The translations under genes and the position numbers were made by a program. DNA of 64,000 nt from NCBI GenBank assembly GCA_937927915.1, contig CALGKB010000010.1, positions 1 to 64,000 on the forward strand, in the 5' to 3' direction. Below are positions 24,080-28,206 of the stretch, piece by piece. The notes below the pieces were generated by a model. That model ran no database searches. It was not told where the DNA came from and was given only the letters and a program-made list of their open reading frames with translations. Origin of the DNA: an uncultured Pseudanabaenaceae cyanobacterium. Its GTDB lineage: Bacteria > Cyanobacteriota > Cyanobacteriia > Pseudanabaenales > Pseudanabaenaceae. The first letter of the stretch is position 1. Every line of letters begins with the position of its first letter.

Positions 24080-24799
24080 ATGCTTTGGCGAACTGGACTA
24101 TTGTTGCCCCTCTTATTACCCCTGTGGTACGCCCAGGCGGCTACAGTAGAGGCAAGCTATGCCCCCCCTGTGGAAGTGGTGATTGAAACTAACGATTACA
24201 CTGCCCCAACGATCGTGCGGGGAGAAGAAATCCTAGAGCCTGTGCCCCAGACCGCCTATACCTATGAAGAGGTGTATACCCCTGCCGTCCAGGTAGCTGT
24301 GCGTTCTCTTTCCCCCCAGGAAATACAGGAAATCAAGGCACTCAATGTCCCAGGCGGAATGCAATTCCCCTTGCCCATGCCAGCTTGGATTAGTTCTGTG
24401 TTTGGCTATCGCATCCATCCCATCACAGGGGAAGAGCGGTTCCACCAGGGTACAGATATTGCTGCCCCCGAAGGTACACCAGTTTTGGCTGCCTGGGAAG
24501 GTAGAGTGGAAATTGCGGGGTGGTTAGGAGGATTAGGTTTTGCTGTGGTCATCTCCCACGACAACGGTAGCCGTGAAACCCGCTATGGTCATCTCTCCCA
24601 AATTTTGGTAGAACCAGGACAGACTGTCAGCAAGGGACAACCGATCGGTTTAGTAGGAAGTACTGGTATGTCTACTGGTCCCCACCTCCACTTTGAAATA
24701 TGGGAGAAGGAGGGAGAACAGTGGATCGTCAAAGACCCCACACCCGCCCTACTGGCTGCCCTCAGTCGTTTGGAAACCTACTTAGCTAGTAAATCCTAG
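24080..24799 (+). CDS. M23 family metallopeptidase (LytM domain), secreted
   Basis: This 239-residue exported cell-wall hydrolase or its regulator begins with a cleavable signal peptide (LLLPLLLPLWYAQAA). After a linker of about 80 residues comes the LytM fold: VFGYRIHPITGEERFHQGTD supplies the first His and Asp zinc ligands and GPHLHFEIW supplies the H-x-H motif. I chose the ATG at 24080 because GGAGG lies five bases upstream; the GTG at 24065 would put that site inside the gene. It ends four bases inside the convergent DnaJ-like gene. Confidence 0.9.
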   Translation: MLWRTGLLLPLLLPLWYAQAATVEASYAPPVEVVIETNDYTAPTIVRGEEILEPVPQTAYTYEEVYTPAVQVAVRSLSPQEIQEIKALNVPGGMQFPLPMPAWISSVFGYRIHPITGEERFHQGTDIAAPEGTPVLAAWEGRVEIAGWLGGLGFAVVISHDNGSRETRYGHLSQILVEPGQTVSKGQPIGLVGSTGMSTGPHLHFEIWEKEGEQWIVKDPTPALLAALSRLETYLASKS

Positions 24800-25776
24800 T
24801 TGCCACCCCTTAACCAGCTGAGCCACCCAGGGAGATTCTTTTTCTGCTCCTGGGGCTTTGTGTCCTTCGTGCGAGAGACTTGGGGTAGATACTGCAAAGC
24901 GATCGGTTCTCTGGGGTTACACTTGAGAGCTTCTTCAAAGGCAGATTTTGCCATGCCAGGCAATTTTTGATTGAGGTACACCAGACCGATGAGAGCGTGA
25001 CAGCGACTATCGCGATTATTCAGCTTCAAAGCCTGCTTTAGTTCCTTGAGAGCGATCGACCACTCCTGCCGTTTGATTGCTACTTCCGCCCTCTGCATAT
25101 GCATAGCAAAGTCTCCTCGATTGATAGGGGCAGCAGGGGCAGGTATAGCCTTTTGTATGCGTGTGTCTGGTAATTGAACCCTAGTATCATCACCTTTACT
25201 TTTCACTGTTTGCCACTGTTGTTGGGGTGGGGCAGTCTGCAGTTTTGTCTCCTCATCTCCCCGCTCAATCAAGTGGGTACAGCCCTCCTTCGCCAGCAGG
25301 TAGACCAAATTTAGTTCGCTAATGTCCCCCGCATGGTCTAGGATGCGTCCAATCTTTTGGTACTGCACCGCTGCCACCATCCGTACCGCTTTTTCGTAGT
25401 TCTCCTGGGTGGGGGCTTTAGCCAGTGCCTTGGCAATATCAGAATAGATCACCACTTTTTGCGCCCGCTTGATCATGCGCTTCGCCACCAGTTTCATCAC
25501 ATTGGAGTACTCCGCCCGCTCCCTCGCCTTGTTGAGAGCAAAGTAGGCAGGGTTGACCATACGGGCAAAGTAGCGGTTCCCCACCTCTCGCTCTTCAGGG
25601 CTAAGGTTAGATACGTCAGGGTGAAGTTTTTTGGCAATTGTGAGATAGCGATCGCGTACCTGTAAAGGCGTTGCAGTGATTGGCACACCCAAAACAGCAT
25701 AGTGATCGTCGAGACCTTGCTGGGCAATACCCCGATCAATCTTCATAGATTTACTGATTTGGAGTACAGTGTGCAT
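24796..25776 (-). CDS. J-domain protein with TPR-like C-terminus
   Basis: This 326-residue protein has an N-terminal J domain (DHYAVLGVPITATPLQVRD with the HPD motif in KKLHPDVSN) that should stimulate an Hsp70 partner. The C-terminal part (AEVAIKRQEWSIALKELKQA, then CHALIGLVYLNQKL and AFEEALKCNPREPIALQYL) reads as two to three TPR units for protein binding. J-TPR proteins of this kind are common in cyanobacteria. The start is uncertain: the ATG at 25776, another ATG at 25746 closer to the J domain, or an upstream TTG at 25794. It is not a full DnaJ, since the zinc and C-terminal client domains are missing. Confidence 0.8.
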   Translation of the reverse strand: MHTVLQISKSMKIDRGIAQQGLDDHYAVLGVPITATPLQVRDRYLTIAKKLHPDVSNLSPEEREVGNRYFARMVNPAYFALNKARERAEYSNVMKLVAKRMIKRAQKVVIYSDIAKALAKAPTQENYEKAVRMVAAVQYQKIGRILDHAGDISELNLVYLLAKEGCTHLIERGDEETKLQTAPPQQQWQTVKSKGDDTRVQLPDTRIQKAIPAPAAPINRGDFAMHMQRAEVAIKRQEWSIALKELKQALKLNNRDSRCHALIGLVYLNQKLPGMAKSAFEEALKCNPREPIALQYLPQVSRTKDTKPQEQKKNLPGWLSWLRGGN

Positions 25777-25852
25777 TGCACTCTGGGGACGCAACTAGTA
25801 GATAATAATATACCACCAAATATGGGATGTGGGGGAGTTCTTGGGACAGAGC

Positions 25853-26841
25853 TTAATACAGCCAGCTGTTGCAGTATGAATGTGCTTTGCCTGTGGTTGC
25901 CGTGTGCTCAACTTCATCGAGGTTAAATTGCAAGTGCACAGCTTTGGGGCATTGTTCCGTGTGACAGGATGAAGTTGCATAGCCAGGTTTTATCAACAAG
26001 GCTTCTTGCATCAAGTTTCTGTGATTTACAGTCGCACCTACATGATCAAAGTGAGAAAAAGTTCTTTCAATTAATCCATCACAATATCTAGTAACATAAT
26101 AATTTATACGATACTTATTTTCCTTCCACATTGACATTGCAAAGCTACAGGGCAGATCGCGCGCAATTCTGACCAAATCTGCTGCATCGTCTTCTGACCA
26201 TTGTTGATAATAATCTGTATGTCTGCCAATGTAAGGCGGGTCAAGATACACAAAATCATCTTCCGTCACGTTTTCAAGAACATTTCGCCAATCTCCAACA
26301 CGAAACTCCCAATCTTTGTCATGCATTATTTTACGTATTTGTGAAATTTGATTGACTATCTTGGTCACATAAGCTTGACGAAAGCGGTCTGGTTTGCGAC
26401 AAAAAGGCACATTGAACTCCCCTTTACTGTTAAAGCGCATCACCCCGTTGAAACACGACCTGTTAAGAAAGATAAAGTCTAGCGGATTTCGACTTTTATT
26501 GAAGCGCTCCCTTACTTCATAATAGTAATCTTCACCCCTTGATAACAATTTTTACCTTCTGATGTCAAATATTTCCTTACTTCTTCAGGTGACAAACTTC
26601 CATCGTAAATCATCTGATATAGCCTGATGATATGGGGGTTAATATCATTGACTAATGCATGTTCTGGCTGTACATTGAACAAAACTACCCCTGAACCAAG
26701 GAATGGCTCAATCCATCGCCCCTTTCCTTTCCAAGAAATATTGCTTAAAATGAATTTGACAAGTTTGGTCTTGATCCCCTGACATTTTATCGGGGGCACA
26801 ATAACTTGTTTTACTGTGCGAGGTAAAACCTGAACAATCAC
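25853..26841 (-). pseudogene. EcoRV-type DNA adenine methyltransferase, frameshifted
   Basis: Two abutting frames make up one Dam-related (D12 class) N6-adenine methyltransferase that closely follows M.EcoRV as I remember it. The first frame (26841 to 26512) has VPPIKCQGIKTKLV and the SAM motif PFLGSGVV. The second (26548 to 25853) has DYYYEVRERFN, FLNRSCFNGVMRFNSKGEFN, the catalytic DPPYIGRH and HVGAT. Adding one A to the five-A run at 26549-26553 joins them exactly, through E-G-K-K-L-L-S-R-G-E-D-Y. The C-terminus runs about 45 residues past the last family-like part. It lies 50 bases behind the matching endonuclease. The shift could be a phase-variable tract, an assembly error or decay. Confidence 0.85.
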
Positions 26842-26891
26842 TTTGCCAAGCCTTTATATTTCAAGTAACTGCGTAAATTAGTGTACGGTGG

Positions 26892-27620
26892 TCAGTTTAA
26901 TTCCAATGCTCTTGCCATATCTTTGGTCAGGTAATACATCTAGTAGTCATCAAAAATATCTTCTCCTAAAGAACCGAACGGACCAGAACCACTTACAAGT
27001 TTATCAATCTCCGTAACCGAACCAATATTCTTGGTATTACCACTTCCTGGACAATCAGATGCAATGCGATATTTTTCCTGCGCAAAGAATTGAAAGTCCT
27101 TAATGACAGAGGTAATCCGCTCCAGTTCATCGAGGGTATATCTTCTTCGCTCATCAATTGCCTTATCTGTCTTTGAGTAGATTACACCAAGAACAAAGTG
27201 ACCGCTATAAGAGCCATAAGGAAAAGTTATGTTTTTGGTGCTATTTCTTTCTCGAAAGTATCCAGTAAAAGTGCCGAGTATCATACCATTCACGCGGTTG
27301 CCATCAATTCTATAGGTGCTCTTCAAATCGAGCGCGAAACGATGACCATCGTCGTCTACAAAACTTATATCTGGGTAAAAGTTCTGTTGTTCCGATAACA
27401 CCATCTTTAAGCGATGCTTTTCGGCGAAGGGTGCCAGTTCTGGGAACAATCAAAGTTCCATAATCTTTGAGATAACTTTGGTGTCCACAGAAATAGTGTA
27501 GATGTTCTTAGATATATCAATAAAGCCTTTGATAATCCAGTCACCCCTTGGAGTTGCAACTCTTGTATTGAAACTTCCTATTTCTGTCTGGGGTACGGTC
27601 AAAAAATCTTGCTTATTCAT
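26892..27620 (-). pseudogene. EcoRV-like type II restriction endonuclease with two in-frame stops
   Basis: Read from the ATG at 27620 (inside the end of purN) one continuous frame of 242 codons ends at 26892, close to the length of EcoRV. It is interrupted by TGA at codon 57 (27452-27450) and TAG at codon 227 (26942-26940). The homology runs across both stops: DTKVISKIMEL before the first, then EQQNFYPDISF and FALDLKSTYR with the P-D...D-x-K active site (Asp 84, Asp 98, Lys 100). The core also has STKNITFPYGSYSGHFVLGV and GSGNTKNIGSV. The TAG sits where EcoRV has the Trp of its D-Y-W motif. The enzyme would cut GATATC, by family inference. It is almost certainly inactive. Confidence 0.88.
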
Positions 27621-28206
27621 TTAACTGCCTCAACCGTTGCAGATATGCACCGATCGTTTTAGGATATATCTTATGCTCTGCCTGTTGAATGCGCTGATGT
27701 AGGGTTTCTACCGTATCTCCTGGTAGAACCGGCACGGGGACTTGGGCGAGAATGGGTCCCCGATCGACTTCCAGAGTGACAATGTGCACAGTACATCCCG
27801 TGATTTTTACGCCATACTCCAGGGCTTGTTGGACGGCACGATGACCGGGAAAACTAGGCAACAAACTGGGATGAATGTTGAGAATGCGATGGGGAAAGCG
27901 ATCGATTAAAACCTGGGTGACAATGCGCATCCAGCCCGCCATAACTACAAGGTCAACCTGGTACTGTTCTAGGGTATGGGCAAGGCGATCGTCTAATAAT
28001 TCCCTGCTGGCAAATTCCCGATGGTTGAGGAGGACATGGGGAATACCACGTTCTTGGCATCTCTCCCGCACAGGGGCATCGGGGTTGTTGTAGATGACCA
28101 CAGCAATTTGGGCGTTGAGTTCACCAGCAGCGATGGCGTCAGCGATCGCCACCAAGTTACTGCCCTTACCAGAAGCGAGAATACCAAGTTGCGGCACAGA
28201 GTACAT
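27613..28206 (-). CDS. purN: Phosphoribosylglycinamide formyltransferase
   Basis: PurN transfers a formyl group from 10-formyl-tetrahydrofolate to GAR in purine synthesis. The 197-residue protein has the substrate loop LASGKGSNLVAI at the start, VVMAGWMRIV, the catalytic ILNIHPSLLPSFPG with its Asn and His, and TVHIVTLEVDRGPILAQ near residue 150, which includes the conserved Asp. The decayed restriction gene starts inside its last codons, so the foreign pair was placed directly behind it. Confidence 0.95.
   Translation of the reverse strand: MYSVPQLGILASGKGSNLVAIADAIAAGELNAQIAVVIYNNPDAPVRERCQERGIPHVLLNHREFASRELLDDRLAHTLEQYQVDLVVMAGWMRIVTQVLIDRFPHRILNIHPSLLPSFPGHRAVQQALEYGVKITGCTVHIVTLEVDRGPILAQVPVPVLPGDTVETLHQRIQQAEHKIYPKTIGAYLQRLRQLNE

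Follow-up and report, generated by a model that had tools for sequence, protein, structure and literature searches.

A decayed EcoRV-type restriction-modification module and GATATC avoidance in a Pseudanabaenaceae cyanobacterium

Introduction

The EcoRV restriction-modification (R-M) pair is carried by E. coli plasmids such as pLG13, where the endonuclease (R) and an adjacent D12/Dam-like adenine methyltransferase (M) are encoded divergently around a regulator. The roles of the catalytic, Q-loop and GSGNT residues have been established for this enzyme, in which the QQN and GSGNT segments contact the DNA. Another pair of the EcoRV family, located on the plasmid pRMAR01 of the thermophile Rhodothermus marinus, is annotated with complete genes in the order R then M, which overlap by 4 bases. 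On the evolution of EcoRV homologues, a literature search has remained without result. In R-M systems, loss of the methyltransferase before the nuclease exposes the cell's own genome to cutting. It has further been reported that genomes avoid the recognition sites of orthodox type II systems that have resided in them for long, and that this avoidance can outlast the system itself (Rusinov et al., 2015, PMC4687349).

We have analysed a stretch of 64,000 nucleotides from an uncultured Pseudanabaenaceae cyanobacterium (contig CALGKB010000010.1, positions 1 to 64,000), here called the window. The R encoded on its minus strand belongs to the same endonuclease family as EcoRV and shares its catalytic residues, Q-loop and GSGNT loop, at about 36% identity over the matched stretch, and a D12/Dam-like adenine methyltransferase adjoins it, as on pLG13. 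Unlike the divergent genes of pLG13, R and M follow each other in one direction with a 4-base overlap, which is the arrangement of pRMAR01, whose R is about 51% identical to that of the window. Intact modules of the same gene order have been found in Anaerolineae, with DNA identities to the window module of 84% (CFX8), 81% (Nak19) and 83% (Roseilinea NK_OTU-006). Whereas these consist of open reading frames over the stretches compared, the window copy carries four inactivating lesions, and both of its genes are broken, in contrast to the EcoRV pair. With high confidence, we read the locus as a decayed EcoRV-type R-M module (type II, two genes, M following R), which has been long resident and only recently inactivated, and whose imprint on GATATC sites persists.

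Three nonsense codons in an EcoRV-type endonuclease gene

The R pseudogene (26838..27620, minus strand) extends from an ATG at 27620-27618 over an ancestral frame of 260 codons to the ancestral stop at 26840-26838. The initial annotation had described a frame of 242 codons with two stops, and translation from 27620 to 26892 indeed yields 242 codons that are interrupted by TGA at codon 57 (27450..27452, minus strand; Leu in the aligned close relatives) and by TAG at codon 227 (26940..26942, minus strand), which according to the alignment does fall on the invariant Trp of the D-Y-W motif. The frame does not end there, however, as a third nonsense codon, TGA at codon 243 (26892..26894, minus strand), stands where intact relatives have a sense codon, mostly for Arg. 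Beyond it, the homology runs on as PPYTNLRSYLKYKGLAK, through which the intact relatives read in an open frame, and the window has the same residues after codon 243. An ancestor rebuilt by mending both stops, as had been suggested, would therefore still end at codon 243 and give no full-length protein; nor is such a reconstruction needed, because natural intact relatives of about 90% identity exist. No indel has been found in the alignment of the R frame with these relatives.

The assignment to the EcoRV family and the presence of conserved sequence around the stops have both been borne out. The whole frame matches the Pfam profile Endonuc-EcoRV (PF09233) with E=2.4e-106, and on the two sides of codon 57 the profile is matched separately by residues 1-56 (E=2.8e-14) and by the 169-aa remainder (E=3.1e-77), while homology continues past codon 243. 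The 169-aa piece also matches solved EcoRV structures in a PDB search; among the NCBIfam models, no EcoRV model has been matched, not even by an intact relative. All catalytic residues are conserved, since Glu55, Asp84, Asp98 and Lys100 align with E45, D74, D90 and K92 of EcoRV, and the active site of codons 84, 98 and 100 (catalytic core, 27321..27371, minus strand) is intact, as the initial annotation had stated. The QQN segment (Q68-Q69 loop of EcoRV) and the GSGNT segment (G182-S-G-N-T DNA-recognition loop) have been kept as well. Interrupted by three nonsense codons, R is nevertheless left with no complete open reading frame and is, judged by its sequence, a pseudogene of the EcoRV family (PF09233) and no working member; the present locus would yield no functional endonuclease.

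As the frame is otherwise unbroken across 260 codons, it could be imagined that the stops are recoded as amino acids and that R is functional. The stops replace different residues, however, TGA standing for Leu at one site and mostly for Arg at another and TAG for Trp, so that no single meaning fits, and we regard recoding as close to impossible. For the longest remaining open stretch (26940..27449, minus strand; 169 aa, from which the first 57 codons and the C-terminus are missing), retention in a new function, e.g., as a regulator, also appears extremely unlikely. This piece comprises the conserved middle of the protein and has changes at only 2 of 106 invariant columns, but such low divergence would be expected anyway if the decay is recent, and the piece lacks both the protein start including Glu45 and the D-Y-W end. 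No such conserved fragment has been seen among the relatives.

A frameshifted partner methyltransferase

The cognate methyltransferase that adjoins R is of the D12 class (Dam/M.EcoRV-like, adenine-specific) and is likewise a pseudogene (25978..26841, minus strand; the DNA homology ends near 25978). It starts with a GTG at 26841, with an overlap of 4 bases at the ancestral R stop, and aligns along its length with the methylase beside EcoRV on pLG13. Relative to the intact relatives, one base has been deleted in the region that separates the FLGSG motif from DPPY, at an A run (26549..26553, minus strand; a -1 frameshift), and M is open in one frame over 26841-26512 and in another over 26548-25853, both of which match PF02086. 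The loss of a costly nuclease that had been proposed is correct as far as R has been inactivated, but because its partner is frameshifted too, the whole pair has been lost. The death of R would have preceded or coincided with that of M, as an earlier loss of M would have exposed the genome to lethal cutting.

There are known cases of split and of orphan methyltransferases, and both halves of M remain open with the FLGSG and DPPY motifs retained. M might hence be alive as an orphan beside a dead R, either through slippage at the A run or as two associating pieces. The run consists of just five A, however, and four positions near the M C-terminus at which the intact relatives compared are uniform have changed, among them a W that is now C and a Y that is now D. 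The omega of M alone is raised on the window branch (0.126 vs about 0.046 for the intact relatives, P=0.977), and the M of a congener carries an in-frame TAG, so that a live orphan methyltransferase seems quite unlikely to us. Most likely, the R-M locus has no present function at all, as a full-length endonuclease would be impossible and the methyltransferase broken or failing.

A different objection would be that the module is intact and working and that sequencing or assembly has introduced the lesions. The genome may derive from metagenome assembly, a short homopolymer is the site of the M frameshift, and the single frameshifts that seem to divide the genes of three distant relatives (L028, L033 and L040) into two pieces could be errors of this sort. 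At any one lesion, above all at the one-base deletion in the A run of M, an assembly error may indeed have occurred. As an account of the whole locus we consider error very unlikely, in agreement with what had been argued from two stops: three separate nonsense codons and a frameshift lie inside 1.1 kb, no comparable break has been noticed in the long open reading frames elsewhere in the window, the raised dN/dS is consistent with decay, as are the changes at invariant columns, and the related pair of a congener is broken as well.

Origin of the module

The decayed module (25978..27621, minus strand) is flanked upstream by an intact purN (27613..28206, minus strand), whose last codons overlap the R start, and on the other, downstream side by an intact DnaJ-like gene (24796..25794, minus strand). 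Its GC content of 39% has been found to be well below the 48.6% of the window and the 52-53% of the neighbouring purN and argF. Homology to relatives covers 27621 to 25978 and in several of them, among these Anaerolineae with the same edges, ends near there on both sides. By its composition, the R+M pair is a compact, AT-rich module that is foreign to its surroundings and has been horizontally acquired. The C-terminus of the window purN is unlike those of the two congeners G002 and G001, and the insertion may have rewritten the end of this gene.

Cyanobacterial homologues had been proposed for comparison, but the nearest sequences are metagenome-assembled genomes of Anaerolineae (Chloroflexota), the best with about 90% protein and 84% DNA identity, and the protein tree has placed the window R inside an Anaerolineae clade (96/81). 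Nor are relatives of EcoRV few, as the initial annotation had assumed: a short-pattern scan alone has found 38 genome loci, 12 plasmid records, and matches in 12 of 390 genomes of the host's class. Relatives on genome contigs that read as one piece contain no internal stop. One genome of the same class as the host (G276, L070) and Microcystis aeruginosa LEGE 91341 (L025) share an identical EcoRV protein, and as GATATC is not depleted in G276 (1327 vs 755 for the control), a recent acquisition is suggested. A further candidate for decay has been noted in another family, where the EcoRV gene of G163 (L071, L074) is split over two frames.

A second broken pair in the genus

It had been proposed that the same stops be looked for in close relatives. 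The intact ones have sense codons at these positions, and in the congener G002, where a related R-M pair occupies another locus, between an aldolase-like gene and murG (gene names assigned by eye), all lesions differ from those of the window. Its R contains a frame-shifted stretch with two TAG codons across the DxK core, by which DxK has been removed, as well as another TAG and a short duplication, and an in-frame TAG interrupts its M. No R-M pair has been found beside the purN or the DnaJ-like gene of G002, and none beside murG in the host genome (G000). In the congener G001, a contig end cuts off a different, more distant EcoRV-family gene after its first 90 codons (L062, G001:C124, 1-209).

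The DNA tree joins the window and G002 modules, if weakly (76/81). At 1.13, the synonymous divergence between them falls within the range for core genes (0.8-1.7) and fits vertical descent with subsequent relocation, while the lower divergence of 0.82 between the window and CFX8 fits separate or back transfers.

Timing of the decay

For R and M together, an omega of 0.106 (bootstrap 0.066-0.168) has been determined for the window branch. The branches that lead to two intact relatives have values of about 0.05, and the window value is the higher one in 99.7% of resamples (bootstrap P=0.997); with a third intact relative, L007, no such rise has been seen. Since omega on the window branch is about twice that of the intact relatives, most of the branch has passed under constraint, with purifying selection acting on the module for long, and the decay is late, which supports the recent loss that had been proposed. 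If the excess were entirely due to neutral evolution, about 6% of the window branch would have been neutral, a value that is meant as an order of magnitude.

Avoidance of GATATC

In the host genome (2.4 Mb), GATATC occurs 74 times vs 384 times for the reversed control CTATAG. The corresponding counts are 56 vs 394 in G002 and 41 vs 348 in G001, in which, by this ratio, depletion is strongest among the three congeneric genomes, and 326 vs 774 in a member of the family without EcoRV, G003. A maximal-order Markov estimate, based on 464 kb of the host genome and 416 kb of G002 (only 63 kb for the control G003), has given observed/expected ratios of 0.145 (14 vs 96.4) and 0.056, respectively. The R of G002 is more damaged, yet GATATC is more depleted there than in the host genome, so that depletion is not a simple function of how far the genes have decayed. 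The host ratio lies below the Kr of 0.78 under which a site has been regarded as underrepresented (PMC4687349), although the Markov statistic is perhaps not identical to the one used there.

Across the 390 genomes of the class, with the table read by eye, the ratio of GATATC to its control is below 0.2 in 12, and the next value is 0.34. The 12 genomes represent three clades only, namely the host genus, part of f17/g24, and f36, and EcoRV genes occur in each of them. A match to EcoRV has been found in 7 of the 12, vs 5 of the 378 others (Fisher P=2e-9, with kinship ignored). The remaining five (G050, G178, G323, G352 and G361) combine strong depletion with no EcoRV match, while their clade-mates have the gene; they may have lost their systems or contain another enzyme with the same specificity.

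From homology and site avoidance taken together, the ancestral system most likely cut unmethylated GATATC, with the host protected by adenine methylation: M would have methylated the host GATATC sites, and R would have cleaved unmethylated GATATC in incoming DNA. The genus would then have harboured the system for long, and the avoidance would be its imprint. Another GATATC system could also be the cause of the avoidance in the host genome; besides the window R, no second profile match to PF09233 has been obtained there, and two further D12-class methyltransferase genes are present. GATATC has only the fifth lowest ratio of 64 palindromes in the host sample, which indicates that several systems may have left imprints. 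In this sample (loci L075-L094 and the window), GAGCTC has been counted once vs 40.5 expected, TTTAAA 11 times vs 117.6, ACATGT 3 times vs 21.3, and GGATCC not at all vs 7.0. These palindromes probably owe their avoidance to further R-M systems, either still present or lost.

In the described traces of lost R-M systems, a palindrome is avoided in the absence of a working system while relatives have or had one (PMC4687349), and the same applies to the host genome. The case thus fits that account and is a known phenomenon, not a new one. It differs in that the dead genes are still present in the window, and cause and imprint can be seen together.

Implications

Lost R-M systems have usually been inferred from missing genes and avoided sites. 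Here, the genomic imprint is in view together with the broken genes, with intact relatives of about 90% identity and with the wreck in a congener that has other lesions, and from this combined evidence the loss of the enzyme can be roughly timed against the recovery of the site. Tentatively, and at somewhat less than even chances, we propose that the genus kept EcoRV-type systems long enough to purge GATATC and that at least two species have since lost their system independently, which would make them natural clocks. If this is true, the genomes of the genus would time how fast restriction-site avoidance fades after the enzyme has been lost.
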